Assembly (NCBI GenBank): GCA_017305715.1
Contig: JAFKKG010000010.1
Location: 1 to 64,000 of the forward strand
Source: Hyphomicrobiales bacterium
GTDB lineage: Bacteria > Pseudomonadota > Alphaproteobacteria > Rhizobiales > Xanthobacteraceae
Reading direction: 5' to 3'
DNA length: 64,000 bases
The notes under the pieces were generated by a model that was not told where the DNA came from, ran no database searches, and saw nothing but the letters and a program-made list of their open reading frames with translations. Positions 20,336-35,276 of this stretch are shown here, piece after piece (within the stretch, counting starts at the first letter, position 1; each line of letters starts with the position of its first letter). The position numbers and the translations under genes were made by a program.

Positions 20336-20360
20336 GGAACGTCCGGCGCGGACGGCCGTT
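20336..20360 (+). promoter_or_regulatory. EcfG-type promoter of csbD
   Basis: GGAAC at 20336-20340 and CGTT at 20357-20360 with exactly 16 nt between, a perfect fit to the alphaproteobacterial general stress promoter GGAAC-N16/17-CGTT. The csbD start codon lies about 30 nt downstream of the -10 box, a sensible leader. The EcfG sigma factor is encoded at 32276 in this window. Confidence 0.75.
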
Positions 20361-20390
20361 GATCGTCATCTCAACACCAAGGAGATGACG

Positions 20391-20591
20391 ATGGATTGGA
20401 ACCGCGTGGAAGGAAACTGGAAGCAGTTCAAGGGCGCCGCCAAGGAAAAATGGGGCAAGCTCACCGACGACGACCTCAACGTGATCGAAGGCCGCCGCGA
20501 ACAACTCGAAGGCAAGCTGCAGCAGCGCTACGGCTTCGCCAAGGACCAGATCCGCAAGGACGTCGATGACTGGTTCGGGACCCTGAAGTAA
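20391..20591 (+). CDS. CsbD family stress protein
   Basis: A 66-residue hydrophilic protein of the CsbD family, small proteins induced in general stress in many bacteria with no known biochemical role. The motifs WNRVEGNWKQFKGAAKEKWG and IEGRREQLEGKLQQRYG are typical. ATG at 20391 has AAGGAG 6 nt upstream; an ATG two codons earlier is too close to that site. It has its own EcfG-type promoter and a strong terminator, so it is a single-gene unit controlled by the general stress response. Confidence 0.92.
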   Translation: MDWNRVEGNWKQFKGAAKEKWGKLTDDDLNVIEGRREQLEGKLQQRYGFAKDQIRKDVDDWFGTLK

Positions 20592-20604
20592 CGCCCCGCA
20601 ATCG

Positions 20605-20633
20605 AAAGCCCCGGCCGACGCCGGGGCTTTTTT
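20605..20633 (+). terminator. Intrinsic terminator after csbD
   Basis: A perfect 11-bp GC-rich stem (20605-20615 with 20620-20630), a CGAC tetraloop and a T-run from 20628 to 20633, starting 14 nt after the csbD stop. It also separates csbD from the convergent 51-residue membrane protein gene. Confidence 0.9.
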
Positions 20634-20646
20634 GTTGGGGCGGGCG

Positions 20647-20802
20647 CTAGACCACGTTGATGTATCTCAACAGCGAGATCACGCCGAGGACGATGACGAC
20701 GACGCGGCAAATCTGCTTGGCGCGACCGTCGATCGGCAGCAGGTTGATGAGGTAGAGAACCAGGATAACGACGAGAAACGTCACGAGAATGCTGACGAGC
20801 AT
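20647..20802 (-). CDS. Small two-span membrane protein (Thivi_2564-like)
   Basis: A 51-residue protein with a hydrophobic first segment (residues 1-22), a short polar loop LPIDGRAKQI, and a second hydrophobic segment ending LLRYINVV. It resembles the small Thivi_2564 family of membrane proteins; no function is known. GAGGGGG lies 5 nt before the ATG. An EcfG-type promoter sits upstream at 20844-20868, so it is likely induced in the general stress response like its convergent neighbour csbD. Confidence 0.8.
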   Translation of the reverse strand: MLVSILVTFLVVILVLYLINLLPIDGRAKQICRVVVIVLGVISLLRYINVV

Positions 20803-20843
20803 GCGGGCCCCCTCGGCAAGAAATGCGGTGTTGGTGTCCTGCT

Positions 20844-20868
20844 AACGTGCCAGGGCAGGCAGAGTTCC
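20844..20868 (-). promoter_or_regulatory. EcfG-type promoter of the 51-residue membrane protein
   Basis: On the minus strand GGAAC (20868-20864) is followed after exactly 16 nt by CGTT (20847-20844), a perfect match to the EcfG consensus. The gene start at 20802 is about 40 nt downstream. Confidence 0.72.
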
Positions 20869-20998
20869 TGAATCGGGAACCTGTATTCGCAATTAAAAAT
20901 CTCGCCCCTTTCAACGGCACCGTACTTTTACGGCCCGGGTGCCGTCCGAGTTATTTACCATTCTGCCCCCCAATGGCCGCAGCTTTTGGGGGAGCACC

Positions 20999-23095
20999 AT
21001 GTTGAATCGTCTGACCGTATCCGCACTGCTGAAGATCGTCATCCTGGCCACCGCGTTCTGCATCGTGGTTGGATTTTCGCTCAACGCCTGGGAATCGTGG
21101 GGCCGCTTGCAGGTCGCGGGCCGCATCTCTGTGATCACGGACGCCTCCGCCAGCATGTTCAAGGCGATGCACAATCTGCGCACCGACCGCTCCACGACCA
21201 ACCGGTTGTTGATGGGGGCTGCGCCAATGGACAGCGACATCGAAAAATACCTGCGCGGCCTTCGCGACGCCGAAATGCCGGCGATGAGCGCCGCGCTCGG
21301 CCAGCTCGGCAAGATCGAGTTCGCGCAGCAGGCGACGCTGGTCCCGGAATTCGACCGCCTGTTCAAGGCGCTGACGGCGCAGCAGAAGGAATTCTGGGAG
21401 GCGATGACCCAGCCCAGGGAAGCGCCCCGCCGCGCTGCGCTCGCCAGGGAATATATGGAGACGACGCAGGGGCTCCTCACCACGCTCGACAGGCTGTCGG
21501 GAACGCTCGCCGCCAACGTCAACCATCAGGACCCCGTGATCGACCAGTTGCTCTCGATCAAGCAGATCGCCTGGCTGCTGCGAAACACCGCGGGCGAGGC
21601 GTCGCTGCTGATCTCCAACAGCCTCGGCGCCGGCAAGGCGACGGCGGAGACCCGCACGGCCCACACCAAATTCAGCGGGGGCGCCGATGCGGCGTGGAAT
21701 GCGCTGGAACTGGCCGCCTCGGGCATGCAATTGCCGCCGGCGCTGGCGAGCGCGATGGCCGCCACCAAGAAGGCCTATTTCGAGCCGGAATACCTTGCCT
21801 TGCGCGAACGGCTGCTGACGGCGCTGGTTGCCGGCGAGAAGCCCGAAATGACCGCGAATGCCTGGAGCCCGGTGACGGTCGGCCGGCTGTCGGCCGCCGT
21901 CAATGTCGCCGAAACGGCGCTCGATGCCGCCCGTGAGCACACCTTGGTGCAGTATTCCGCCGCGCAGCGCGCGCTGATCATGCAACTGGTGCTGCTCGCC
22001 GCCGCGCTGGCATTGACATCGGGGGCGCTGATGCTCGTCACCCGCCGCGTCATCAAGCCGCTGCACAACATGCGCGACGCCATGCTGAAGGTCGCCGCCG
22101 GCGACCTCACGGTCGATACCGGCTACACCCAGCGCCGGGATGAAATCGGCGCGCTGGCGGGTGCGCTCGAGACGTTCAAGCAGCAGGCCGGGGACAAGGT
22201 CCGGATCGAGACCCAGGAGCGCGAGCGCAATGCCGGCGCGATGGCGCGCCAGAAGGCGATCGACAGCTATGTCGGCGAATTCGAGAGCATCGTGCGCCGG
22301 ACCCTCGACCAGCTCGGCGATGCTTCGGGGCAGATGCGGACCACCTCGGATGGCCTGTCGACGGTTTCCCGCCAGACCAACGCGCGGGTCGAGGTCGCCG
22401 AGAAGGCGTCCAGCGAAGCCTCGATGAGCGTCGAGACGGTCGCGGCGGCTTCCGAGGAACTGAGCGCCTCGATCAACGATATCAGCCAGCAGGCCGCCCA
22501 TGCCGCCGGGATCGCCAGCCGCGCGGTCAGCCAGGCGCGCGAGACCGACGGCACCGTGCAGGGCCTTGCGGCGTCCGCGGGGAGGATCGGCGAAGTCGTC
22601 GGCCTGATCAATTCGATCGCCGCCCAGACCAACCTGCTCGCGCTCAACGCCACCATCGAAGCGGCGCGCGCGGGCGAAGCCGGTCGCGGCTTTGCCGTGG
22701 TCGCTTCCGAAGTCAAATCGCTGGCGAGCCAGACCGCGAAGGCGACCGAGGAAATTTCGGAGCAGATCTCCGAAATCCAGAAGGTCGCAGGCGACGCCAT
22801 CGACGCCATCAAGGGCATCGGCGGCATCATCGGCGAGGTCAACGAGGTGGCGACCGCGATCGCGGCCGCCGTGCAGGAACAGGGTGCCGCGACGCAGGAG
22901 ATCACGCGCAGCACGCAGTTCGCAGCCCAGGGCACCAAGAACGTTTCCGACAACATCTCGGGCGTGAAGACCGATGCGGACGCGGCAGCGGCGGCCGCCG
23001 ATGACGTCAAGCAGGCTTCCGAGACGCTGGAAACGCAGAGCAAGCAATTGGGGACTCAGGTCACCGAGTTCCTCGGCAAGATCCGCGCGGCGTAG
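20999..23095 (+). CDS. Methyl-accepting chemotaxis protein
   Basis: A 698-residue transmembrane chemoreceptor. TM1 spans about 10-31, a large helical periplasmic sensor covers 32-320, TM2 lies at about 325-345, then a HAMP domain ([20 protein letters not shown]) and the signalling hairpin whose tip is near residues 538-580 ([20 protein letters not shown]). It would signal to CheA/CheW; none is encoded here, so it is an orphan receptor. No methylesterase-binding pentapeptide is seen at the C-terminus. The ATG at 20999 has GGGGG 6 nt upstream. Ligand unknown. Confidence 0.94.
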
Positions 23096-23105
23096 GCGCC
23101 ACTAC

Positions 23106-23197
23106 CGTCATGCCCGGCCTTGTGCCGGGCATCCACGACTTCCTTCTCCGTCGACTGTCAAAGACGTGGATGGCCGGGTCAAGCCCGGCCCTGACGG
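23106..23197. repeat. Palindromic repeat after the chemoreceptor gene
   Basis: A pair of inverted blocks, ATGCCCGGC...GCCGGGCATCCACG and CGTGGATGGCCGGG...CCCGGCCCTGACGG, forms nested hairpins. It is a well-recognised look of intergenic repeats in Bradyrhizobium. It fills most of the gap between the convergent chemoreceptor and DUF2865 genes. Confidence 0.7.
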
Positions 23198-23228
23198 AGT
23201 GGAAGTGTCGACCCCCATCCCAACATCC

Positions 23229-23867
23229 TTACTCTCGCGCCACGACCGGCACGCGCTCATACTTCGCGCGCACCTTGTCTGACGCGGGAGAAAAATTCAG
23301 CGAGGCGCCACGCCGGTCGGCGCTGCGGCCGGCGACCAGCAAGCCGTTCTCGCCGGCGACGATGTCGCCCCTGCGCAAGGTCGGATCGTTCTCGATCTTG
23401 ACCGGCGCCAGCCCGGTCTGGTCCTTGCGGTTGCAGGTGCATCCCGCCACCAGCTCGTTGCGATAGCGGAACGCGTTCGGCAGCTCCGAATAGGATTTTC
23501 CGTTCTCGCCTGCCGCGTTGTCGATGCTGCTGCCGTAGAACACCTTGGTCTCGCTCGCCGGACAGAAGCTCTCGCAGGATGCCGCGCGGCTGGCATTGTC
23601 GGATGCCGTTACCGGGAAGTAGCGGCCGTCGCAAGTACGCACGCAGAACGCCTGGCCGCCGCCGGAATAGCGCACGCGGCCCTCGCCGCGCTGCACCGGC
23701 ACCGATCCGTCCTCATTGGCGAAGGGCATCGAAATATAGGGGGTCCGCGCCCGGCCCATGCCGCCGAACAGGGCCGAGAAGAAATCCTGAGCCTGCGCCG
23801 CCGGGGCCAGCGCGGCAGCACCTGCCAATGCCACCGCACCCAATATTGCCATTCTACTCACGCCCAT
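23229..23867 (-). CDS. DUF2865 exported protein
   Basis: A 212-residue exported protein of the DUF2865 family, common in Rhizobiales and of unknown function. After a signal peptide ending AQA it has cysteine-containing motifs typical of the family: FCVRTCDGRYFPV, ASCESFCPAS and GCTCNRKDQTGLAPV, so several disulfides are likely in the periplasm. I use the ATG at 23867 with GGGAG 6 nt upstream; one at 23873 is possible. It starts 22 nt after the L,D-transpeptidase stop and should be co-transcribed with it, which suggests a cell-wall-related job. Confidence 0.87.
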   Translation of the reverse strand: MGVSRMAILGAVALAGAAALAPAAQAQDFFSALFGGMGRARTPYISMPFANEDGSVPVQRGEGRVRYSGGGQAFCVRTCDGRYFPVTASDNASRAASCESFCPASETKVFYGSSIDNAAGENGKSYSELPNAFRYRNELVAGCTCNRKDQTGLAPVKIENDPTLRRGDIVAGENGLLVAGRSADRRGASLNFSPASDKVRAKYERVPVVARE

Positions 23868-23889
23868 ACCCATCTCCCGTTACGGCGGC

Positions 23890-24651
23890 TCAGTTGAACT
23901 GCGACGCCGTCAGATTCATCGCCTGCCGCCCGGCAGGCTGGGTCACCGCCGCCGGACGCGCCGGCGCTGCCACCGGGCGCACGCTGATATTGGTTCTGGT
24001 CTCGATATGCGGCCCGCTCTTCGGCAGCACCACGACCTTGGTGCCGACATCGACACGGCTGAACAGATCGCTGACGTCTTCATTGGTCAGGCGGATGCAG
24101 CCGGAGGAAACGAACTTGCCGATCGTCGAGGGATCGTTGGTGCCGTGAATGCGGTATTGGCTGGAGCCGAGATACATCGCCCGTGCGCCGAGCGGATTGC
24201 CCGGGCCGCCCGCCATGAAGCGCGGCAGATAGGGCTGGCGCGCGATCATCTCGGCCGGCGGATGCCAATCCGGCCATTCCGCCTTGCGGGTGATGGTCTG
24301 CACGCCGGACCAGGTAAAGCCCTCGCGGCCGACGCCGACGCCGTAGCGGATGGCGCGGCCCTGGCCCAGTACGTAATAGAGCGCGGTATTGCCGGTATCG
24401 ATCACGATGGTGCCGGGCGCCTCATGGGTGTTGAAGGCCACGACGGCACGGCGCAGCCGCTCCGGCATGACGCCCGCCTCGGGCTCGACCATCACTTCAT
24501 CGGTGGGAAAGGCATTGGGCTGGGTGGAGGCGTAGCCCAGCGTTTGCGCGCTCGCCGCGCCAGGGAATACCGAGGGCGCCAGAAACAACGCGGTTGCGAA
24601 GGCAAGCGCGTGCGTTACGCGCGACGAAGGCCGGCGAGAGGACTGTGTCAT
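23890..24651 (-). CDS. L,D-transpeptidase (YkuD domain)
   Basis: A 253-residue exported L,D-transpeptidase of the ErfK/YbiS/YnhG type. These enzymes form 3-3 peptidoglycan crosslinks or attach proteins to the wall. The catalytic motif is complete: H169 in HGTND and C185 in SSGCIRL. A signal peptide covers about 1-36 (ending ASA). ATG at 24651 is preferred; a start at 24675 would leave almost no leader after the promoter. Its EcfG-type promoter places wall remodelling under general stress control. DUF2865 follows in the same unit. Confidence 0.92.
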   Translation of the reverse strand: MTQSSRRPSSRVTHALAFATALFLAPSVFPGAASAQTLGYASTQPNAFPTDEVMVEPEAGVMPERLRRAVVAFNTHEAPGTIVIDTGNTALYYVLGQGRAIRYGVGVGREGFTWSGVQTITRKAEWPDWHPPAEMIARQPYLPRFMAGGPGNPLGARAMYLGSSQYRIHGTNDPSTIGKFVSSGCIRLTNEDVSDLFSRVDVGTKVVVLPKSGPHIETRTNISVRPVAAPARPAAVTQPAGRQAMNLTASQFN

Positions 24652-24696
24652 GGGACTGCCCCGTTGGATGCGCATCGGGTGATGCTGTGGACAGGT

Positions 24697-24721
24697 AACG
24701 CGACCGGGGCCGGGCGGTTCC
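24697..24721 (-). promoter_or_regulatory. EcfG-type promoter of the L,D-transpeptidase gene
   Basis: Minus-strand GGAAC (24721-24717), 16 nt, then CGTT (24700-24697): a perfect consensus match. The start codon at 24651 follows at a normal leader distance. It is paired with a divergent site for the AI-2E transporter at 24779-24803. Confidence 0.72.
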
Positions 24722-24778
24722 CTGCAACTGAAGTCGATAGGCGCGCTGTCAACCCGGCAAGGCTCACAGTCTCGCGAT

Positions 24779-24803
24779 GGAACTTTTGTCTCGGCCGATC
24801 ATT
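24779..24803 (+). promoter_or_regulatory. EcfG-like promoter of the AI-2E family transporter gene
   Basis: GGAAC at 24779-24783, 16 nt, then CATT at 24800-24803. The -10 box differs from CGTT at one base, the same variant seen before nepR and the 28-residue microprotein. It lies inside the longest open frame of the downstream gene, which supports the later GTG start at 24882. Confidence 0.55.
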
Positions 24804-24881
24804 GTGGCCCTTGAGAATGAGGTTCGCGGGGCGACGTCGCGTCTGCGATGTGATCACCGCCTTGCGCGGGGGAGAATCGTT

Positions 24882-26126
24882 GTGCGTCCCTTGTCCGGAG
24901 AGCGTTCGCCTCCCAAGCCATTGCCGGAAGAACGCAAGGCGCCGCCCGGCGAGCGCAAAACGGCGCAGGGCGAGCGCAAGGCATCCGATCACAAGACGCT
25001 CGAGCAAAAGGCATCTGACCGGAAGCCTTCGCCGAACGAACGCCGGCAGGCCAACACGCCGGAAGGCAACCCGCTGCCCGACAGCCACCTCGAACTGCCC
25101 CCGCTGATCAGCCGCGCCGAGATCGTCGCCTTCTCGCTGGTGTCGTTGCTGGTGATCTGCATCGTCGCCGTGCTGTACGCGGCAAAGGCCTTCTTCCTTC
25201 CCGTCGTGATGGCCTTCATCGTCGGCACCATGCTGTCGCCGGCGGCGGGCTTTCTCGAACGGCGCCGCATTCCGCGCGCGGTTGCGGCGGTCCTGATCGT
25301 GGCCGCGGTCGGCACCGGTGTCGCGTTCATGGTCGGTTTGATCGCGGCACCCCTGATGGAATGGAGCAGCAAGCTTCCCGAGCTCGGATCGCAGTTGAAG
25401 GACAAACTGCATGTGTTCGACCGGCCGCTGGCGCTGTGGCAGCAGTTGCAGGGCATGCTCGGGGGATCCGATACGCTGGCGACCTTCCACCTGCCGAAAT
25501 TCGAATGGGTGCAGCCGACGCTCGAATTCCTGTCGCCGACCTTCACGGAATTCCTGCTGTTCGTGGCGACCCTGATCCTGTTCATCGCGAGCTGGAAGGA
25601 TCTGCGCCGGGCCATGGTGATGAATTTCGGCGACCGCCCGTCGCGGTTGCGGACGCTGCGGATCCTCAACGAGATCGAGGAGCATCTGGGCAGCTATCTG
25701 CTGATGGTGACGACCATCAATGTCGGCGTCGGTATCGCCACCGGCATCATCTGCGCGGTGACGGGCATGCCCAATCCGGCGGGCCTCGGCGCACTGGCCG
25801 CGACGTTGAACTTCATTCCGATCATCGGACCGGTCGCGATGTTCGTGGTGCTGGTCATGGTCGGCATCGTCACGTTTCCGTCGATCGGCGCCGGACTGCT
25901 GGCACCGCTGCTGTTCGCCGGCATGGCGTTTCTCGAGGGGCATTTCATCACGCCGACCATCGTCGGCCGCCGGCTGGAGCTCAACGCGCTCGCCGTGTTC
26001 GTCGCGCTGGCATTCTGGACCTGGCTGTGGGGACCGATGGGCGCGTTCCTGGCTTCCCCGATCCTGATCGTCGCCTTGATCCTCAAGGAGCATCTGATGC
26101 CGGTCAATTCGCCACAGCTTCCCTAA
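24882..26126 (+). CDS. AI-2E family transporter (PerM-like)
   Basis: A 414-residue inner-membrane protein of the AI-2E exporter/PerM family, about eight spans, with the family end GPMGAFLASPILIVALILKEHL and the central LEGHFITPTIVGRRLELN. The family includes efflux permeases; the substrate here is unknown. An unusual charged, repeat-rich cytoplasmic leader (repeated GERK/ERK/SDRK units over about 45 residues) precedes the membrane part. The GTG at 24882 has GGGGGAG 7 nt upstream and follows the probable promoter; the open frame itself reaches back to 24777. Confidence 0.85.
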   Translation: MRPLSGERSPPKPLPEERKAPPGERKTAQGERKASDHKTLEQKASDRKPSPNERRQANTPEGNPLPDSHLELPPLISRAEIVAFSLVSLLVICIVAVLYAAKAFFLPVVMAFIVGTMLSPAAGFLERRRIPRAVAAVLIVAAVGTGVAFMVGLIAAPLMEWSSKLPELGSQLKDKLHVFDRPLALWQQLQGMLGGSDTLATFHLPKFEWVQPTLEFLSPTFTEFLLFVATLILFIASWKDLRRAMVMNFGDRPSRLRTLRILNEIEEHLGSYLLMVTTINVGVGIATGIICAVTGMPNPAGLGALAATLNFIPIIGPVAMFVVLVMVGIVTFPSIGAGLLAPLLFAGMAFLEGHFITPTIVGRRLELNALAVFVALAFWTWLWGPMGAFLASPILIVALILKEHLMPVNSPQLP

Positions 26127-26140
26127 TGGGTTTCGCGGCC

Positions 26141-26165
26141 GGAACTTCCGCTTCGGGCGGGCGTT
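26141..26165 (+). promoter_or_regulatory. EcfG-type promoter of the DUF883 gene
   Basis: GGAAC at 26141-26145, 16 nt, CGTT at 26162-26165: a perfect match. The DUF883 start codon is about 36 nt beyond. The promoter begins 15 nt after the transporter stop codon. Confidence 0.75.
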
Positions 26166-26201
26166 TCCCCAACATGCAATTTCAGTACCCGGGAGCTTTC
26201 G

Positions 26202-26543
26202 ATGTCGCCGACCGACAGTGCCACCTATGAACGCCTGGAAAAGGATGTAACCGCCGTGAAAAACGATATCGCCGCCCTCACCGACCAGATCACCGATGCG
26301 CTCAACAATTTTGCCGGCACCGCCGGCAAGCAGGCGCGCCGCGGCTACAAGCAGGCGCGCGCCAATGCGGAAGCTGCGATGGACGACATGTCCGAGCGCG
26401 GCAGCGCCATGATGGATGCGGCTCAGGATGCGGCCTCCTCGATCGAGGAGTCGCTGGAAGACGTCATCACGCAGCGGCCGCTCGCGACCGTCGGCCTCGC
26501 GCTCGGCGTGGGTTTTCTGATCGGCGCGATGTGGCGCAGGTAG
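26202..26543 (+). CDS. DUF883 family protein (ElaB/YqjD-like)
   Basis: A 113-residue protein with a long amphipathic, alanine-rich helical region (residues 1-85, with ARRGYKQARANAEAAMDD) and one C-terminal membrane anchor (ATVGLALGVGFLIGAMWRR). This is the layout of ElaB/YqjD, stationary-phase inner-membrane proteins reported to bind ribosomes in Escherichia coli. An EcfG-type promoter precedes it, which agrees with a stress or stationary-phase role. The next gene encodes a YqjE-like membrane protein, the same pairing as in enterobacteria. Confidence 0.88.
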   Translation: MSPTDSATYERLEKDVTAVKNDIAALTDQITDALNNFAGTAGKQARRGYKQARANAEAAMDDMSERGSAMMDAAQDAASSIEESLEDVITQRPLATVGLALGVGFLIGAMWRR

Positions 26544-26560
26544 TAATCAGGCTGCGCGCC

Positions 26561-26585
26561 GGAACGCCCGGCTTCATCTTGCGAT
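26561..26585 (+). promoter_or_regulatory. Possible weak EcfG-like promoter before the holin-like gene
   Basis: GGAAC at 26561-26565 with CGAT at 26582-26585 after 16 nt; one mismatch to the -10 box. It could give extra transcription of the downstream gene inside the DUF883 unit. Chance occurrence cannot be excluded. Confidence 0.35.
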
Positions 26586-26642
26586 GACGGCGCCGGCGCG
26601 TGGCGTGTTTTGTTGATGTTCTTTTCAGATCGAGGCGAGCCC

Positions 26643-27083
26643 ATGTTTCAGCGACTGATCGATGACTTCAAGGATTCGACCGGCACCGCGTTGCGGCTGA
26701 CCTCGCTGGCCGCCGCCGCCGCGGTCGCGCTGCTCGTCACCACCTCGTTCCTGTGCGCGGCCGCGTTCGTGTTCGTGCTGCAAAAATACGGCCCGGTGGA
26801 AGCCTGCCTCACCGGCGCCGGCATCTTCTTCGTGGTCACGATGATCGCGGCGATTTCCTACATGGTGCGCAAGAAGCAGATCGAGACGCGCGTCAAGCAG
26901 ACGACGAAATCGGCCGCCCAGACCATGCTGGCCGACCCGATGCTGGTCGCCGCCGGCCTGCAAGTGGTGCGCGCGATCGGGATCAAGAAGCTGATTCCGA
27001 TCCTGGCGGTCGGCGGCCTCGCGCTGGGATTTTTGGCAAGCCGCGGGCAGAGCCAGGCGGGTGGCGAAGCGTCGGCCGATTAA
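26643..27083 (+). CDS. Small membrane protein, YqjE/holin-superfamily-like
   Basis: A 146-residue inner-membrane protein with two adjacent hydrophobic segments (about residues 20-45 and 55-75) and a third near the C-terminus (LIPILAVGGLALGFLAS). The order, directly after a DUF883/YqjD-like gene, matches the yqjD-yqjE pairing. I do not recognise a catalytic motif. The ATG at 26643 has GAGG 7 nt upstream. It probably works with the DUF883 protein at the inner membrane under stress. Confidence 0.72.
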   Translation: MFQRLIDDFKDSTGTALRLTSLAAAAAVALLVTTSFLCAAAFVFVLQKYGPVEACLTGAGIFFVVTMIAAISYMVRKKQIETRVKQTTKSAAQTMLADPMLVAAGLQVVRAIGIKKLIPILAVGGLALGFLASRGQSQAGGEASAD

Positions 27084-27129
27084 GTTCGTGCTCTCTCCAA
27101 GCCCGAGACGACAGTGTGTTTGTTGTTGC

Positions 27130-27615
27130 ACCGGGCCTCTAACATGCGTTCGCTATCTCGCGGCTTGATGCGCCCGAGCTTTGCCGGAAACTTCCCGCCC
27201 TCTTCAAACAGAGGGCGCAGGGAAGACCGGGTGCGCGCTGCACCCGCGGTCTCGTGTGCAATGTGCACTAAAAAATGCGCACACGAGCATACAGGTCCAG
27301 CGGAGAACACCCGGCCTTCCCTGCGCAATGGCTTTACGGCTTATGGCGAGATCTCCCCGGAGAACGGCTCTTTTGCCTCCGTGGCGCCCTGGGAAGTCGA
27401 ACGCCCCCAGGTGCATTGACGCCAGCAACGCGACGTCGGGACCACACGCTTTTGCCGTACGCCCCCGCCACGATCGTCTCCGTGGCATCGGCGTCCATCG
27501 CAACCCGTCCAACGTCCGTGACGACGGCCGACGCCCTTCTGACCAGGACGGGATGGGCAAATTCGTAGAGATGATTTGCCCGACGAGGAAAGCGGAATTT
27601 TGCCCGTCGGGTTAA
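27130..27615. repeat. Large dispersed palindromic element (about 490 bp)
   Basis: A structured non-coding element with nested inverted repeats: outer arms 27215-27233 and 27308-27326 (18 of 19 pair), inner arms 27251-27259 and 27279-27287, a third hairpin 27388-27393/27406-27411, and a last pair 27579-27585/27605-27611. Its translation products, which read like AGKTGCALHPRSR, are familiar to me as spurious hypothetical proteins annotated many times in Bradyrhizobium genomes, so I take it as a multicopy genus-level repeat. The exact ends are uncertain. Confidence 0.65.
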
Positions 27616-27640
27616 TTTGTCGCACGGCTATCTCCACGTC

Positions 27641-27711
27641 GTTGCGAACGGAGCGAAGCAATCCACGCCTGGGCTTGGCGCAAGTATGGATTGCTTCGCT
27701 CCGCTCGCAAT
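27641..27711. repeat. Palindromic repeat with 25-bp arms
   Basis: Arms 27641-27665 and 27687-27711 pair at 23 of 25 positions around a 21-nt loop. The core GCGAAGCAATCCA is a motif I recognise from dispersed Bradyrhizobium repeats. No T-run on the side facing the exported-protein gene. Confidence 0.7.
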
Positions 27712-27733
27712 AACGGCGGGGAGAGCTTTCCCT

Positions 27734-28126
27734 TTACGTCACGCAGCGCCCCGGCTGAAGCAGCTTGGCGACGTCGGTCAGGATGCTGACGGGCGGCTCG
27801 CAGGCGACCGCGATCCGCTTGCTGGCCGGCTTGGTCACCGGCGACGGGTTGCGCGCTGCCTTGGACTCTTCCTTGGCAACGGGAAGGCGGACCAGCACGG
27901 AGGTATCCGTGAGGCCGTTGTGTTGCAGCGCAATGGTCCGGGTCTGCCCCGCCGCAGCGGGAACCGAAGCGCGGTCGGACTTGGCGGCACGATTGACGCC
28001 GACCTCGGGCGCCGTACCCGGCGCCTGGCGGTTGCCGATCAGATCGTGGGCAAACGCGAGCTGGACCGCGCCAAGCGTCAGGGCGATGGCGAGCGAGCCG
28101 AAAATTCCCTTGCGAATCTGTGGCAT
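27734..28126 (-). CDS. Hypothetical exported protein
   Basis: A 130-residue protein of unknown function. Residues 1-25 (MPQIRKGIF, then a hydrophobic stretch ending QLAFAHD) form a signal peptide. The mature part is alanine-, proline- and lysine-rich, and has two cysteines near the C-terminus (VACEPPVSILTDVAKLLQPGRC) that could form a disulfide. I recognise no domain. I chose the ATG at 28126 because the signal peptide begins there; the frame is open a further 24 codons upstream. It stands alone among repeats. Confidence 0.7.
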   Translation of the reverse strand: MPQIRKGIFGSLAIALTLGAVQLAFAHDLIGNRQAPGTAPEVGVNRAAKSDRASVPAAAGQTRTIALQHNGLTDTSVLVRLPVAKEESKAARNPSPVTKPASKRIAVACEPPVSILTDVAKLLQPGRCVT

Positions 28127-28239
28127 GTCGGGTGTGTCCCTCGCCCCATGGCGATCACCAACACAACCCCAGCCAGGCCATCCCGGTTCGGCACACAAAC
28201 GATCACTTAAGCGTGTATGAAAATATCCGAGAATATTTG

Positions 28240-28358
28240 GCGGCGCCTGGAACGACTCCGGGGCTCGCGAGTCTTCTCAACAGCCGGTTATTCCCCCTGC
28301 CCCATTGACCGGCGATGTAGGGCGCGACCGTGGTGATGCCGGTCGCGCCCTGCTTTTT
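28240..28358 (+). ncRNA. Candidate trans-acting small RNA with a C-rich loop
   Basis: A plus-strand intrinsic terminator lies here with no plus-strand gene before it. Upstream are a GACTC/GAGTC hairpin (28254-28258 with 28269-28273) and a second hairpin GCCGGT/ACCGGC (28283-28288 with 28308-28313). Its 19-nt loop contains CCCCC and CCCC, sequences able to pair with Shine-Dalgarno motifs. Hairpins with C-rich loops plus terminator are the usual build of alphaproteobacterial regulatory RNAs. The 5' end is a guess, and no family is assigned. Confidence 0.5.
28320..28358 (+). terminator. Intrinsic terminator of the small RNA candidate
   Basis: Perfect 11-bp stem (28320-28330 with 28340-28350), 9-nt loop, and TTTTT at 28354-28358. 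It works only in plus orientation, since the opposite side lacks a T-run. Confidence 0.8.
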
Positions 28359-28523
28359 GCGCTGTGCCGCAGGGGTTTTTGAATCGGCTCCGGCCGTCCC
28401 CACCATAATCCCCACAACGTGCGCGCGACCGAACCCCGTTAACCGGCCGGTTTATCGTTCATTTCCCGTGTCGATTTCGTGGCTTAGACTGGTTTGCGCG
28501 GAACGGTGCTCCGAGGGCATGTG

Positions 28524-29588
28524 ATGATCAGCAGACGGCAATGCCTGATCGGCATGGGGTGCGCGGCAACCCTTGCCACGTCGTTTCGGAGCGCTTGCGG
28601 GCATTCGCAGGTCCATCTTGCCGATATGCATCGGCACCTGTTCTTCAATCGGCTTGCGAGCAAGGAAGCGCAGCCGATGGGGGCGTCCATGTCGGCCGGC
28701 GGAGCAACGCTCGTGGCATGGGCGATCACGACGGACGTCTTGTGGATCGCCAAGGGACCCCGGGGCTACAAGCAGGTCGCGACGCCCGAAACAGGTCAGA
28801 CCTTCGGTTACTTTCAAAGAGAGCTCGCCCGCATCAAGGCACACCTCCTTGCGCAGAAGCTGAAGGCCGCCTTGACCACCGATGATGTCGATGCGGCAAT
28901 GGACGGCGATCCTCATGTCGTGCTCGCGACGGAAGGCTCTGTCTTCCTGGAGGAGGATCTCTCGCGGGTCCAGACCGCCTTCGATCTCGGCATACGGCAC
29001 ATCCAGCTCGTGCACTATTCGGGCAACTCGGTGGCCGATTTCCAGACCGAGGAGCCCAAGCATGGCGGCCTGACGGCCTTCGGCCGGGACGTGGTCAGGG
29101 AGTGCAACCGTCTTGGGATCCTGATTGACCTCGCCCATTGCACCGAACAGGTGGTCGATCAGGTTCTGGAGATTTCAGACGCACCGGTCATATGGTCTCA
29201 CAGCTCCATCGCGCCGGGTGCGCGTCCGCACTGGAGCATGATCGGCTGGAAAGCACGGCAGCTAACGCTCGATGCCGCGCGACGCATAGCTGCAAGGGGC
29301 GGGGTTATCGGATTGTGGGCCCTGCGTATCGATGCGGCTCATTCCGTCTCGTCCTACGCTGACCGCATGCTCTTGATGGCGGATCAGGTCGGCGAGGACC
29401 ACGTCGCCTTTGGCTCCGACTTTACCGACAACCCGGCCGATCGGGATTTTGGAGAGTTCAGGTCCTATGCCGACCTTCGCAAAGTCGTCGATATGTGGGA
29501 GACGAAACGGATTCCCGAAAGAACGATCCGGAAGCTGGCCGGACAGAACTATGCCCGGGTGCTCAAGCGCGCCATGGCCCGTGGTTGA
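28524..29588 (+). CDS. Membrane dipeptidase (peptidase M19), Tat-exported
   Basis: A 354-residue zinc peptidase of the renal dipeptidase family. The twin-arginine signal SRRQCLIG near the start points to Tat export as a folded metalloenzyme. Family landmarks are DMHRHLFFN (the usual DGHND/DTHxD position, here DMH), the metal-bridging glutamate in ATEGSVFLEEDL, HYSGNSVADF, IDLAHCTEQ, WSHSSIAPGARPH and FGSDFTDN. The last three look intact. The ATG at 28524 has GAGGG 6-7 nt upstream. Substrate unknown: dipeptides or D-amino-acid peptides. It may share transcription with the downstream aldolase gene. Confidence 0.87.
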   Translation: MISRRQCLIGMGCAATLATSFRSACGHSQVHLADMHRHLFFNRLASKEAQPMGASMSAGGATLVAWAITTDVLWIAKGPRGYKQVATPETGQTFGYFQRELARIKAHLLAQKLKAALTTDDVDAAMDGDPHVVLATEGSVFLEEDLSRVQTAFDLGIRHIQLVHYSGNSVADFQTEEPKHGGLTAFGRDVVRECNRLGILIDLAHCTEQVVDQVLEISDAPVIWSHSSIAPGARPHWSMIGWKARQLTLDAARRIAARGGVIGLWALRIDAAHSVSSYADRMLLMADQVGEDHVAFGSDFTDNPADRDFGEFRSYADLRKVVDMWETKRIPERTIRKLAGQNYARVLKRAMARG

Positions 29589-29692
29589 CGGACGTTTCTT
29601 CGGGGACTCTGCATTCCGCCCGCGGTTCGATAATAGTCTTTTGCAACACCGAACCCCGTCAGCCCAGACTTCCCACGAAAGCGACCCCAGCG

Positions 29693-30739
29693 ATGACGAC
29701 CAATCCCCAGCAGTTTGCGAGCGACAATTATGCCGGCATTTGCCCGGAGGCGTGGGCGGCGATGGCGGAGGCCAATCACGGCCACGTGCCGGCCTATGGC
29801 GAAGATCCCTGGACCCAACGCGCCTCCGACGCGTTCCGGGCATTGTTCGAAAAGCCCGACGCCGAAGTGTTTTTCGCCTTCAACGGCACCGCGGCCAATT
29901 CGCTGGCGCTGGCCTCGCTGTGCCAGTCCTATCACAGCGTGATCTGCTCCTCCTCGGCCCATGTCGAGACCGACGAATGCGGCGCGCCGGAATTCTTCTC
30001 CAACGGCTCAAAACTGCTGATCGCCGACAGCAAGGACGGCAAGCTGACGCCGGAACAGGTCGCGGGCCTCGCCGGCAGCCGTTCCGACATCCATTTCCCG
30101 AAGCCGCGCGTGGTGACGATCACCCAGCCGACCGAAACCGGCCAGGTGTATTCCCTGGAGGAAATCCGCGCGCTGTCGGCGACCTGCCGCAAACTCGGCC
30201 TGCGGCTGCACATGGACGGCGCGCGCTTTGCCAATGCCTGCGCTTCTCTCGGCTGTTCGCCGGCGGAGATGACCTGGAAGGCCGGCGTCGATCTCCTGTG
30301 CTTTGGCGGCACCAAGAACGGCATGGCGGTCGGCGAGGCGATCCTGTTCTTCGATTCCACCCTGGCCGAGGATTTTGACTACCGCTGCAAGCAGGCCGGA
30401 CAGCTCGCCTCGAAGATGCGTTTCCTCGCCGCACCCTGGGTGGGCATGCTGCAGGACGGCGCGTGGCTGCGCAATGCGCAGCACGCCAATGCGGGCGCCG
30501 CGCGGCTGGCGGCCGCGGTGGCCGATTTGCCGGATTTCAATCTGATGTTTCCGGTGCAGGCCAACGCGGTTTTCCTGCGCGCCTCCGCCGACCGGCTGGA
30601 GGCGCTGCGCCAGCGCGGCTGGCAGTTTTACACCTTCATCGGCGGCGGCGCGCGTTTCATGTTCGCATGGGACGCCGATCCGGCGCGGATCGACGCGCTG
30701 GCGCGGGATATCCGGGAGGTGAGCGGGGCGCGAGGGTGA
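29693..30739 (+). CDS. Low-specificity L-threonine aldolase-like PLP enzyme
   Basis: A 348-residue fold-type I PLP enzyme of the threonine aldolase / beta-eliminating lyase family, which splits threonine or related beta-hydroxy amino acids into glycine and an aldehyde. The cofactor lysine is K208 in FGGTKNG; the substrate and cofactor site shows AHVETDECGAPEF, HMDGARFANA and TITQPTETGQVY. ATG at 29693 matches the family N-terminus (ASDNYAGICPEA). It lies 104 nt after the dipeptidase. Specificity (threonine, phenylserine or other) cannot be read from sequence. Confidence 0.9.
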   Translation: MTTNPQQFASDNYAGICPEAWAAMAEANHGHVPAYGEDPWTQRASDAFRALFEKPDAEVFFAFNGTAANSLALASLCQSYHSVICSSSAHVETDECGAPEFFSNGSKLLIADSKDGKLTPEQVAGLAGSRSDIHFPKPRVVTITQPTETGQVYSLEEIRALSATCRKLGLRLHMDGARFANACASLGCSPAEMTWKAGVDLLCFGGTKNGMAVGEAILFFDSTLAEDFDYRCKQAGQLASKMRFLAAPWVGMLQDGAWLRNAQHANAGAARLAAAVADLPDFNLMFPVQANAVFLRASADRLEALRQRGWQFYTFIGGGARFMFAWDADPARIDALARDIREVSGARG

Positions 30740-30754
30740 GCGGCAGAATAATAT

Positions 30755-30906
30755 CCCTCGTCGTCCCGGCCTTGAGCTCAGATGTGCAATTGCACATCCA
30801 GGGACCATAGCCTCCGGCAGAATTTGTTTTGCGCGCTGAGTGTTGCCTTCCTTTACCAACAACAGCCGCCGCGGGGTAAGGGTCCCGGCCTTCGCCGCGA
30901 CGACGG
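30755..30906. repeat. Palindromic repeat pair downstream of the aldolase gene
   Basis: A left block CTCGTCGTCCCGGCC (about 30758) is inverted relative to the right block GGTCCCGGCCTTCGCCGCGACGACGG (30881-30906), with a perfect 18-bp palindrome GATGTGCAATTGCACATC at 30781-30798 between. The right block is related to the repeats at 228-261 and 2019-2050. Confidence 0.55.
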
Positions 30907-30939
30907 AAAAAAACGGCGCGCCGTGAAGCGCGCCGTTTT
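30907..30939 (-). terminator. Terminator after phyR, usable in both directions
   Basis: Perfect 12-bp stem (30910-30921 with 30928-30939), 6-nt loop. On the minus strand it is followed by a run of seven Ts, so it ends phyR transcription 24 nt after its stop. On the plus strand four Ts follow the stem, so it may also stop read-through from the aldolase gene. Confidence 0.85.
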
Positions 30940-30962
30940 CGATTCGATCCGATGACCTCAAC

Positions 30963-31769
30963 CTAACCGGTCGCGGCCCTCGGCGCGCGGTTGCGGGAGT
31001 TGCGCTGGAAGAACAGCGCCTGGCTCGCCACCGCCGAAACCATCGCGGGCTGGAACGGCTTTGAGATCAGGAAGGCCGGCTCGGGGCGCTCGCCGGTGAG
31101 GAAGCGCTCGGGATAGGCGGTGATGAACACCACGGGGACCTCGAACACCTTCAACAGTTCGTTGACCGCATCGAGGCCGGAAGAGCCGTCCGCCAACTGG
31201 ATGTCGGCGAGGATCAGCCCCGGCTTCTTGTTCTTGGCCAGCGCCACCGCATCGGCATGGGTGCGGGCGACGCCGATGACGTTGTGTCCGAGATTTTTCA
31301 CGAGGCTCTCGAGGTCCATCGCAATAAAAGTCTCGTCCTCGATGATCAGGACGTCGGTGGCGATTTCCGCCGCCATCTCGCGGCCGGCGGCGTCCGCGAG
31401 CTTGCGGGTCTCGGCGATATCGGTGCCGAGAATGAAGCCCACTTCTTCCTCCGAGAAACCCTCGAGCGACAGCAGCAGGAAGGCCTGCCGCGGCAGCGGC
31501 GTGATGTTCGAGAGCCGGCGCTCCGACGGCAATGCCAGGGTGGCGACATCCGGGTTCTCGTTGACCGAGACCGAATTCCAGATTTGCGTGAACAGCCGGA
31601 ACAGCCCGGCGCGCGGGCCCTGCCTTTCGTCCAGCAGCGAGGAATCCTGCAGCAGGGCCTCCAGCATGGCCCCGACATACGCGTCGCCTGACGCCTGGTT
31701 TCCCGTCAGCGCACGGGCATAGCGCCGCAACAGCGGCAAATGTTCTGCAACGAGCTGTGATCGGGACAT
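30963..31769 (-). CDS. phyR: General stress response regulator PhyR
   Basis: A 268-residue PhyR: an EcfG-like sigma-mimic domain (about 1-135) fused to a receiver domain (about 138-255). On phosphorylation of D189 the sigma-like part binds NepR and frees EcfG. The receiver is complete: ED (144-145), D189 in ILADIQ, T217 and K237 in SKPF. The ATG at 31769 has GGAG 5 nt upstream. It diverges from nepR-ecfG, and an EcfG-like promoter lies upstream, giving positive feedback. Confidence 0.96.
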   Translation of the reverse strand: MSRSQLVAEHLPLLRRYARALTGNQASGDAYVGAMLEALLQDSSLLDERQGPRAGLFRLFTQIWNSVSVNENPDVATLALPSERRLSNITPLPRQAFLLLSLEGFSEEEVGFILGTDIAETRKLADAAGREMAAEIATDVLIIEDETFIAMDLESLVKNLGHNVIGVARTHADAVALAKNKKPGLILADIQLADGSSGLDAVNELLKVFEVPVVFITAYPERFLTGERPEPAFLISKPFQPAMVSAVASQALFFQRNSRNRAPRAATG

Positions 31770-31907
31770 CCCCACTCCATTCCTTGTCTATGGCCCGGTT
31801 CGGGCCACTCTGGGTCCAACTTGCAGCGCCCTACCTGAAACACGAGGTCCGGCGGAGCGTATCCTGAAACGGGGCGCCCTGGTTCCCCTGTTCCCCTGTC
31901 CGCCTAT

Positions 31908-31932
31908 TACGCCCCACGGGCCAAAAAGTTCC
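31908..31932 (-). promoter_or_regulatory. EcfG-like promoter of phyR
   Basis: Minus-strand GGAAC (31932-31928), 16 nt, CGTA (31911-31908); one mismatch to CGTT. The phyR start is about 140 nt downstream, so the leader would be long. A second GGAAC nearby has no fitting -10 box. Confidence 0.55.
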
Positions 31933-31953
31933 TTCAAACTGTTCCCCAATTTC

Positions 31954-31978
31954 GGAACTTTTCGGGAGCCTTCGCATT
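31954..31978 (+). promoter_or_regulatory. EcfG-like promoter of nepR-ecfG
   Basis: GGAAC at 31954-31958, 16 nt, CATT at 31975-31978; one mismatch to CGTT. Autoregulation of ecfG by its own sigma factor is known in alphaproteobacteria, and this is the only GGAAC site in plus orientation in the gap. Confidence 0.6.
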
Positions 31979-32060
31979 AGCATCCGACCTACAACGCGGG
32001 CGGCCAAGACCTAATTTCGAGAAAAACCTTGAAATTCAAGGGCTTAACACTCGGGGAAGC

Positions 32061-32276
32061 GTGGATGACAACATGAAAGAAGTAAAGAAGCAGGGCGGAC
32101 TCAACGCCGAGATCCAGTCCAGGATAGGGCATCAGCTCCGGGCCATGTACGACGACGTCGTTCGGCAGGGCGTGCCCGACCGCTTTGCGGAACTGATCCG
32201 GAAGCTCGACGGGCCGGAGGCAGCCACCGCCGCTCAGGGCGGGGGCGAACCTGACAAAAACAATGGAGGTAGCTAA
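32061..32276 (+). CDS. nepR: Anti-sigma factor NepR
   Basis: A protein of up to 71 residues, the anti-sigma factor that holds EcfG inactive until phosphorylated PhyR takes it away. The two helices of NepR are visible: AEIQSRIGHQLRAMYDDVVRQGVPDRFAELIRKL, interrupted by the conserved GVPDRF turn. The GTG at 32061 follows GGGGA by only 3 nt; an ATG at 32073 gives a 67-residue protein and is equally possible. The stop codon overlaps the ecfG start by one nucleotide, so the sigma and anti-sigma factors are co-translated. Confidence 0.93.
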   Translation: MDDNMKEVKKQGGLNAEIQSRIGHQLRAMYDDVVRQGVPDRFAELIRKLDGPEAATAAQGGGEPDKNNGGS

Positions 32277-32824
32277 TGCCTCTCACGGATTCTCTTCGCG
32301 ACGACATTTTGGCGGCGGTACCGTCCTTGCGCGCGTTCGCGATCTCGCTCAGCGGTAATGGCGACCGCGCCGACGACCTTGTGCAGGAAACGCTGCTGCG
32401 CGCGATCGCCAATATCGACTCGTTCCAGGTGGGCTCGAACCTGCCGGCATGGCTGTTCACGATCCTGCGCAACCTGTTCCGCTCCGACTATCGCAAGCGG
32501 CGGCGCGAGGTCGAGGACGCCGAAGGCAATTACGCCAAAACCCTGAAGACCCAGCCGGCGCAGAACGCGCATCTGGAATTCGAGGAATTTCGCGTTGCGC
32601 TCGACAAGCTGCCGCAGGACCAGCGCGAAGCGTTGATTCTGGTCGGCGCCTCCGGCTTCTCCTATGAGGACGCCGCGGCGATCTGCGGCTGCGCGGTCGG
32701 CACCATCAAGAGCCGCGTCAACCGCGCCCGTTCGAAGCTGAGTGCGCTGCTCTATGTCGACGGCGCCGACGATTTCGGCCCCGACAACACGGTGCGCGCG
32801 GTGATCGGCGGCAATGGCGGCTGA
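32276..32824 (+). CDS. ecfG: General stress sigma factor EcfG
   Basis: A 182-residue ECF sigma factor with region 2 (about 10-75, DLVQETLLRAIANIDSF) and region 4 (about 105-165, LPQDQREALILVGASGFSYEDAAAICGCAVGTIKSRVNRARSKL) and no region 3. It directs RNA polymerase to GGAAC-N16/17-CGTT promoters in the general stress response of alphaproteobacteria. The ATG overlaps the nepR stop. A strong terminator follows. Several matching promoters lie within this window, so it probably controls many of its own neighbours. Confidence 0.95.
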   Translation: MPLTDSLRDDILAAVPSLRAFAISLSGNGDRADDLVQETLLRAIANIDSFQVGSNLPAWLFTILRNLFRSDYRKRRREVEDAEGNYAKTLKTQPAQNAHLEFEEFRVALDKLPQDQREALILVGASGFSYEDAAAICGCAVGTIKSRVNRARSKLSALLYVDGADDFGPDNTVRAVIGGNGG

Positions 32825-32847
32825 TCGAAGCGATCAGGACGAACTGC

Positions 32848-32876
32848 AAAAGGCGGCCCGAGAGGCCGCCTTTTTT
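32848..32876 (+). terminator. Intrinsic terminator after ecfG
   Basis: Stem 32850-32858 with 32864-32872, loop CGAGA, and a T-run from 32871 to 32876, about 25 nt after the ecfG stop codon. Confidence 0.9.
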
Positions 32877-32896
32877 GTTGCCGCTTTCGGTTTGGC

Positions 32897-32997
32897 CTAA
32901 AGCGCGATGAGATTGGGTCGAATAGTCATCGCGCTTTAGCTCTTTGCTTGAGTGTGATCTTTTCGGAAAACCGCTTCACCCTTTTCCGGATCAAGCT
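32897..32997. repeat. Dispersed Rhizobiales-type repeat
   Basis: A perfect 12-bp inverted repeat (32899-32910 with 32926-32937) followed by a TTTTCGGAAAACCG motif. I recognise the AAAGCGCGATGA...TCATCGCGCTTT and CTTTTCCGGATCA parts as a common intergenic repeat in Rhizobiales. It ends at the stop codon of the 28-residue gene. Confidence 0.65.
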
Positions 32998-33084
32998 TCA
33001 ATGATTCAAACCACCGAAAGCGTAGATCAGCACCAGAATCGGCAAGGGAATGCCGAGCAGCCATAACAGCAGATAACGTCCCAT
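32998..33084 (-). CDS. 28-residue single-span membrane microprotein
   Basis: A 28-residue frame: a basic start (MGRY), a hydrophobic span with two prolines (LLLWLLGIPLPILVLIYAFGG), and a short tail LNH. It has a strong ribosome binding site (GGAGG, 7 nt before the ATG) and an EcfG-like promoter at 33121-33146, which together make it a real gene despite its size. It lies between ecfG and the sensor kinase gene. I do not know a function; a stress-induced inner-membrane peptide that touches the kinase or the membrane is a guess. Confidence 0.7.
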   Translation of the reverse strand: MGRYLLLWLLGIPLPILVLIYAFGGLNH

Positions 33085-33120
33085 GGATTCGCCTCCGTCC
33101 ATCATCGAATGATGCGGATA

Positions 33121-33146
33121 AATGCGTGGGCAACGCGACTGGTTCC
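33121..33146 (-). promoter_or_regulatory. EcfG-like promoter of the 28-residue microprotein
   Basis: Minus-strand GGAAC (33146-33142), 17 nt, CATT (33124-33121), the same -10 variant as before nepR. The start codon lies 37 nt downstream with a GGAGG site between. Confidence 0.55.
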
Positions 33147-34913: not shown

Positions 34914-35276
34914 TCGCTTACTCGGGCATGAAATGTTGGCGAAGACGTAAAGGAAGCATTCCGGGTCCGCCAGGGCAGCAAATGAAAACCGGGCGACGGC
35001 CGATCACGGGCGAATATGGATGAGGGGTCATCAGCACGCAACTAACGGGATGGCAGCGGGCAGCAATTGGCCGCCGTTAACGCTGATTTGGCGGGGCCAG
35101 AAGATGGCAATGACGCCGGACCAATTTGGTTCCAGGCATGGCAGGAATATTTTCGACCGTTGCGACACCCGGCCGCGGTCGCATCCGGGCGTGGCGGATT
35201 TGGGATAACGCCGATCACAAGACCGTGCCGTGAATGTTAACCAATCCGGCGGCGCTGTCCCGCCTTCAGCCGGCCT
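34914..35276. other. Intergenic region without recognised features
   Basis: These 363 nt separate the kinase and ureG genes. A 62-codon open frame near 35020-35208 has no ribosome binding site and no protein-like character, and I reject it. I see no terminator with a T-run and no consensus promoter. Confidence 0.5.

Follow-up and report, generated by a model that had tools for sequence, protein, structure and literature searches.

Predicted EcfG-type promoters in a conserved effector block beside the phyR, nepR and ecfG genes of a Hyphomicrobiales bacterium

The PhyR-EcfG system of Bradyrhizobium diazoefficiens, reportedly described by Gourion in 2009, comes from the same genus as the locus described here and has orthologous regulators. 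The present locus lies in a 64,000-nt stretch of a Hyphomicrobiales genome (contig JAFKKG010000010.1, positions 1 to 64,000; hereafter the window), where genes for the sigma factor EcfG, the anti-sigma factor NepR and the anti-anti-sigma response regulator PhyR share a neighborhood with putative effector genes preceded by predicted EcfG-type promoters. The B. diazoefficiens EcfG regulon exceeds 100 genes, according to the available part of one report (PMC8092242); unlike the window, the B. diazoefficiens locus that we fetched (L083) has the effector block and ureG but no ecfG in the fetched stretch. A divergent arrangement of phyR and nepR-ecfG, with general stress response (GSR) promoters and a kinase gene nearby, is given as typical in the available text of a review on Alphaproteobacteria (PMC8103513). 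The window resembles that description in its three regulators, divergent layout, nearby kinase gene and EcfG-type promoters on both regulator units, but differs from it in having a conserved effector block and regulator promoters whose -10 boxes are off consensus ([CA]ATT, [CA]GTA, GATT). For Sphingopyxis granuli, the available sections of PMC7083833 give GGAAC-N16-CGTT as the GSR motif and both csbD (a direct target) and the HWE kinase gene adjoining phyR as targets, all with counterparts in the window, whereas the two EcfG paralogues and the GGAAC-N16-CGTT promoter of nepR2-ecfG1 set that species apart; CATT and TGTT -10 boxes are described there as functional, if weaker, in vitro.

The window very probably holds a core alphaproteobacterial GSR locus accompanied by several of the genes it controls; judged from the DNA, this is a real, conserved and canonical EcfG-type regulon cluster, of a kind already known. 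An earlier note, made by reading the letters of the window, had listed four exact GGAAC-N16-CGTT sites, and all four are where it placed them: 20336-20360 (+) upstream of csbD, 20868-20844 (-) upstream of a gene for a 51-residue membrane protein, 24721-24697 (-) upstream of an L,D-transpeptidase gene, and 26141-26165 (+) upstream of a DUF883 gene. These are the only exact N16/17 matches within the 64 kb, and their -10 boxes end 24, 41, 21 and 36 nt, respectively, from the start codons; among 100 shuffles of the window, a single one gave four or more exact matches (mean 1.01). The corresponding products are a CsbD-family stress protein of 68 residues (20385..20591, +; PF05532, E 1.1e-22), a Thivi_2564-family small membrane protein (20647..20802, -; NF041949, 52.8 bits against a cut-off of 33), a YkuD-type L,D-transpeptidase (23890..24675, -; PF03734, E 6.5e-25) and a DUF883 protein distantly like ElaB/YqjD (26202..26543, +; PF05957, E 5.4e-8).

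The evidence is carried by the position and conservation of such sites, not by raw matches. Conservation was scored in 80 named loci fetched by their AI-2E-family transporter, nearly all of the most similar being Bradyrhizobium, a gene counting as positive when the exact motif lay within 300 nt upstream; sample sizes differ by gene, weak, partial or truncated gene matches having been dropped. The exact site was found upstream of csbD in 32/33, of the 51-residue protein gene in 65/75, of the transpeptidase gene in 68/78 and of the DUF883 gene in 76/76, and in the direction of the AI-2E gene in 54/78. Control genes were nearly empty: malate synthase 1/71 (query position approximate), DUF2865 1/75, a methyl-accepting chemotaxis protein (MCP) 0/48, a holin-like gene 0/76, a translation-factor-like gene at 16082 0/51, and, with queries that begin off the true start, a hypothetical gene at 27734 0/44 and ureG 0/26. 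Exact-site scoring did not extend to the M19 peptidase (0 rows) and beta-eliminating lyase (1 row) genes, and the reversed pattern was upstream of none of the scored genes in the named loci. A further 20 loci from the wider family, hand-picked and non-random (16 with DUF883 near ecfG, 4 with a strong EcfG match but no DUF883 beside it), had CGTT sites upstream of csbD in 4/4, the 51-residue protein gene in 10/13, the transpeptidase gene in 8/10, the DUF883 gene in 11/11 and the AI-2E gene in 1/10. The idea that 20-35 kb is largely one stress-response neighborhood is supported by this conservation with controls, by genome-wide position and by synteny, but does not extend to the MCP, DUF2865, holin-like and 27734 genes, which in Bradyrhizobium have no conserved exact site.

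The regulators follow the effector block in window coordinates. PhyR (30963..31775, -; NF006623, 363.9 bits, cut-off 240) has sigma-like and receiver domains (PF22029, PF22233, PF00072). NepR (32061..32276, +; PF18557, E 5.7e-16) may start instead at ATG 32073, and its stop codon is overlapped by the start of ecfG (32276..32824, +), the two forming a predicted operon. The product of ecfG, which the earlier note had also placed at 32276, exceeds the cut-off of NF009192 (387.9 bits against 307); that model is named only RNA polymerase sigma factor, and the EcfG assignment draws also on context beside nepR and phyR. Its closest solved chain is 5uxx_A (E 8e-58), and the genome has one close EcfG, the next sigma factor among the matches listed being 38% identical. 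The adjacent gene (33255..34913, -) encodes a CHASE-HWE histidine kinase (PF07536, E 8.1e-23; PF03924; PF07568) in whose translation we read an HRXXN motif (HRVKN); it is likely the PhyR kinase and, from its upstream site, appears to belong to the regulon, although absent from the first list of targets.

Five further promoters are predicted where the -35 box and spacing fit, the position is conserved and the -10 box is off consensus (CATT or CGTA). They precede phyR (31908..31932, -; CGTA, 132 nt from the start), nepR-ecfG (31954..31978, +; CATT, 82 nt), the kinase gene (35109..35133, -; CATT, 195 nt), a conserved small open reading frame (ORF) for a 28-residue membrane microprotein (32998..33084, -; site 33121..33146, -, GGAAC-N17-CATT, 36 nt) with no match in the Pfam search, and the AI-2E-family transporter gene (24885..26126, +; PF01594, E 5.8e-38). 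The AI-2E site (24779..24803, +; CATT) diverges from the transpeptidase promoter and lies 81 nt before GTG 24885, an uncertain start codon; the longest ORF begins at 24777, and that start would place the site within the frame. The first reading had listed all of these but the kinase site as one-mismatch sites, and they are present, with the amendment that the microprotein spacer is N17 and not N16. In all, the 64 kb contain 23 sites whose -10 has one mismatch or none, and 11 lie within 20.0-35.3 kb; eight of the 11 are those of the first reading, and the rest are at 22456 (within the MCP gene), 26561 (CGAT, unconserved) and 35133 (the conserved kinase site). The holin-like gene (26643..27083, +; a weak PF07332 match below cut-off), some 100 nt downstream of the DUF883 gene, was considered as an independent target through the site at 26561 and rejected, a near match being present in 1/65 relatives only; it is possibly transcribed from the DUF883 promoter.

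At the regulator genes the exact motif is rare in the named loci (kinase 2/29, phyR 1/19, nepR 0/19), and what is kept is the -35 box with a different -10. In named, family and relocated loci together, GGAAC precedes phyR in 55/55, followed by [CA]GTA in 45 and CGTT in 3, and precedes nepR in 56/56, where 49 have [CA]ATT and 4 have CGTT, the latter seen in none of the 19 named and none of 20 relocated Bradyrhizobium-group loci. Both GGAAC boxes are kept in an alignment of 20 phyR-nepR intergenic sequences. For the kinase gene GGAAC is found in 41/43, 33 of which continue with GATT, AATT or CATT; CGTT occurs in 4. The microprotein gene, counted in the window and eight relatives, has GGAAC at 58-74 nt in 9/9, a -10 no more than one mismatch from consensus in 6/9 and CGTT in 0/9. 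Within 300 nt of comparison genes GGAAC is sparser (malate synthase 5/78, DUF2865 5/84, holin-like 8/73, ureG 4/35, the 16082 gene 10/58), and it lies upstream of ecfG itself in 14/36. The AI-2E site is of another sort: the window's CATT is, by comparison, a variant where most Bradyrhizobium relatives carry CGTT. We also observed an extra GTTCC between the phyR and nepR -35 boxes (window 31928-31958); several relatives lack 11-13 nt there, which leaves the divergent boxes merely 8-10 nt apart.

Effector and regulator promoters were compared in the 50 loci holding both kinds of gene (36 named, 14 from the family; relocated loci, having no effectors, fall outside the comparison), taking for every gene the -10 nearest to CGTT, a choice that works against the contrast reported. 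CGTT was found in 145/159 promoters of csbD, the 51-residue protein, transpeptidase and DUF883 genes vs 8/106 regulator promoters, and the effector fraction exceeded the regulator fraction in 50/50 loci. The contrast holds in 50/50 loci when AI-2E is added to the effectors (172/204), and in 49/50 with one tie when the microprotein is added as well (172/211). The microprotein, no known regulator, misfits a clean two-tier rule, its -10 being off consensus in all 8 relatives scored; nor is every regulator off consensus, as CGTT precedes some sensor-kinase-like genes (identified by eye) of the same genome. We tentatively propose, with slightly less than even confidence, that this ancient regulator-plus-effector cluster has two promoter tiers: the effectors would sit mostly at the optimal CGTT, while phyR, nepR-ecfG and the kinase gene would be selected for suboptimal [CA]GTA, [CA]ATT and GATT across genera, even after ecfG relocation, keeping positive feedback weak so that the sigma factor does not lock itself on. 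Feedback promoters kept at low strength are suggested by the available portion of PMC7083833, where EcfG transcription in vitro in Sphingopyxis falls when CGTT is replaced by CATT or TGTT. The contrast may be new: in the available parts of the literature searched we found no description of the ancestral effector block or of the two-tier -10 pattern, in a comparison to which the main Bradyrhizobium regulon gene list did not belong. With the 50-locus contrast, how strong GSR autoregulation should be would become a simple promoter-swap question.

By analogy with published systems, the locus would work as a partner switch. Without stress NepR would hold EcfG; under stress the HWE kinase (33255-34913) would sense the condition and phosphorylate PhyR, which would then remove NepR from EcfG. 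Free EcfG would direct RNA polymerase to promoters of the GGAAC-N16/17-CGTT type, its targets here being csbD, the 51-residue membrane protein, L,D-transpeptidase, AI-2E transporter, DUF883 and 28-residue microprotein genes, phyR, nepR-ecfG and the kinase gene, and the off-consensus -10 boxes of the switch genes would limit the feedback loop.

Gene order was compared at two depths. Both genes were located in 111 genomes of the genus, and the top matches for transpeptidase and ecfG lay within 40 kb in 42, farther apart on one contig in 25, and on different contigs, where linkage is undecided, in 44; best hits were taken without an orthology check and circularity was ignored. The count leaves out two genomes with no close EcfG (G006, G101) and four whose transpeptidase match was outside those listed (G033, G091, G051, G016). 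In a family sample of 80, where linkage was counted by eye, 11 non-Bradyrhizobium genomes from six genera have a close DUF883 homologue (E <=1e-37), and in 11/11 ecfG is 2.4-10.9 kb away; of 31 other family genomes with a weaker DUF883 homologue, six have it within 20 kb of the best EcfG-type match (five of these six within 4 kb), vs about 0.3 expected. The fullest order among the fetched loci is malate synthase, csbD, 51-residue protein, DUF2865, transpeptidase, AI-2E, DUF883, holin-like, hypothetical, phyR, nepR, ecfG, 28-residue protein, kinase and ureG, with members missing in several loci. The window adds an MCP gene, common to many Bradyrhizobium relatives, and, before phyR, genes for an M19 peptidase and a beta-eliminating lyase, the latter present in one other named locus (L010). 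Seventeen named loci have the block and ureG without ecfG, and in these the sites are kept (DUF883 17/17, 51-residue protein 17/17, transpeptidase 15/17, csbD 5/5, AI-2E direction 16/17); over all full-length loci without ecfG, some of which may have it just outside, the counts are DUF883 42/42, 51-residue protein 40/42 and transpeptidase 37/42. In 20 genomes with ecfG far from the transpeptidase gene, a homologue of the hypothetical gene stands beside phyR-nepR-ecfG in 14, and the kinase gene and ureG do so in 2. From the 11/11 linkage in six other genera, the cluster looks ancestral. Three distant family members (L195, L196, L197) have DUF883 beside phyR in another order, and exact EcfG sites stand upstream of both phyR and a gene of EcfG type; this arrangement may be an independent association.

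The genome-wide background was counted with the pattern and its reverse. Exact N16 matches number 93 in 7.45 Mb (reversed control 124), and exact N16/17 matches 138 (reversed 191). In the density check proposed with the first reading, the 12.8-kb block has four exact N16 matches vs 0.16 expected, but the reversed pattern is commoner; with no genome-wide excess of the motif, raw density is a weak test here. Raw matches are mostly background, and a single one means little, since the reversed control is commoner than the motif. We took 2.4 kb around each of the 93 N16 matches (45 N17 matches lay outside this context analysis) and used a codon-usage script to call genes; on the window it missed nepR and misplaced some starts. 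A match was promoter-positioned if outside called genes with a same-strand gene start within 250 nt downstream, as were 35/93, vs 13/93 with orientation flipped. Four of the 35 are the window's exact sites, within 5.8 kb. Other promoter-positioned sites of this genome (loci L089-L181) precede genes that, named by eye from translations, resemble Ku, Dps, EgtB, PRC-barrel proteins, dodecin, a second CsbD and sensor kinases.

Could the sites be chance matches, and the cluster one picked by eye from a match-rich genome? The background described above speaks for this, as do the 58/93 exact N16 matches that are not promoter-positioned and the existence of other match groups (contigs C42 and C36), among them looser promoter-positioned ones such as four across 35 kb on C42. 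Any four of 35 promoter-positioned sites fell inside 5.8 kb at a frequency of 1e-4 in 200,000 random placements, however, and for four of 35 to lie within 12 kb of ecfG the binomial probability is 5e-6, both figures being post hoc. A chance origin, to which we give next to no credence, is refuted for the four exact sites, because tens of genomes have a site at the equivalent position whereas control genes are nearly empty. Several facts nevertheless count against reading the whole cluster as EcfG promoters: genome-wide, the exact motif shows no excess; of the nine promoters claimed, five (AI-2E, phyR, nepR, microprotein, kinase) are off consensus in the window; the exact site is missing in 10/75 relatives for the 51-residue protein gene, 10/78 for the transpeptidase and 24/78 in the AI-2E direction, and in 9/10 family loci for AI-2E; the relatives are not independent samples; and GGAAC precedes the MCP gene in 35/52 relatives (window 20876-20880) with no EcfG-like -10 behind it. 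A conserved GGAAC alone is not proof of a promoter, because the MCP gene has one without a proper -10; with no conserved -10 following, the MCP gene was rejected as a member.

The promoters could also be real but read by one or several other extracytoplasmic function (ECF) sigma factors, as the GGAAC -35 is shared with RpoE-type sigmas. The EcfG query has 12 matches in the genome, and other ECF sigmas therefore exist; GGAACTT is also the E. coli RpoE -35 in the available text of PMC8103513, and the regulator promoters carry non-CGTT -10 boxes. We nonetheless think this quite unlikely, since the available parts of PMC3892343, PMC7083833 and PMC8103513 give CGTT after N16/17 as canonical for EcfG, and the sites lie near ecfG itself, the next sigma among the matches listed being only 38% identical. 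A third reading, compatible with a core GSR locus and its targets, accepts true EcfG promoters but takes their clustering as functionless, an ancestral gene order without selection for linkage. The sites that persist without ecfG in the 17 named loci, the 25 genus genomes in which the two best matches are over 40 kb apart on one contig, and DUF2865, which has no site and is retained in the same block, all favor it, while the linkage surviving in six other genera and the excess among weaker DUF883 homologues count against it; we regard the matter as evenly balanced. The clustering seems to be inherited synteny, with linkage to ecfG apparently not needed, because loci without ecfG keep their sites.

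For a GSR locus with its own targets, the synteny block, which Bradyrhizobium shares with at least six other genera, yields a short list of likely core targets with conserved EcfG-type promoters, namely CsbD, the Thivi_2564 protein, L,D-transpeptidase, AI-2E transporter and DUF883. In other bacteria, relatives of CsbD and of DUF883 are stress proteins. The effector functions, such as 3-3 wall cross-links made by the transpeptidase, are suggested by family membership, and a joint role in wall and membrane reinforcement would be reasonable. The ribosome-linked proteins that the earlier note saw in the neighborhood find little backing: the link rests on a distant DUF883/ElaB resemblance, and the protein scores 29.2 bits against the ElaB model NF007709 (cut-off 139); the ribosome link is weak. 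Many genes in GSR regulons have no known function, as the available part of PMC7083833 notes.

Between the transpeptidase and AI-2E genes the divergent -35 boxes (window 24697-24803) are 58 or 59 nt apart in 64/78 relatives, and the distance from the -35 to the transpeptidase start varies despite this fixed spacing. A GTCAA element is strongly conserved between the two sites; considered as a sigma-70 promoter, it had no fitting -10 found by eye. The hypothetical gene before phyR, which has an exact EcfG site in none of 44 Bradyrhizobium loci, has one in other genera (L183, L184, L186, L189, L201).

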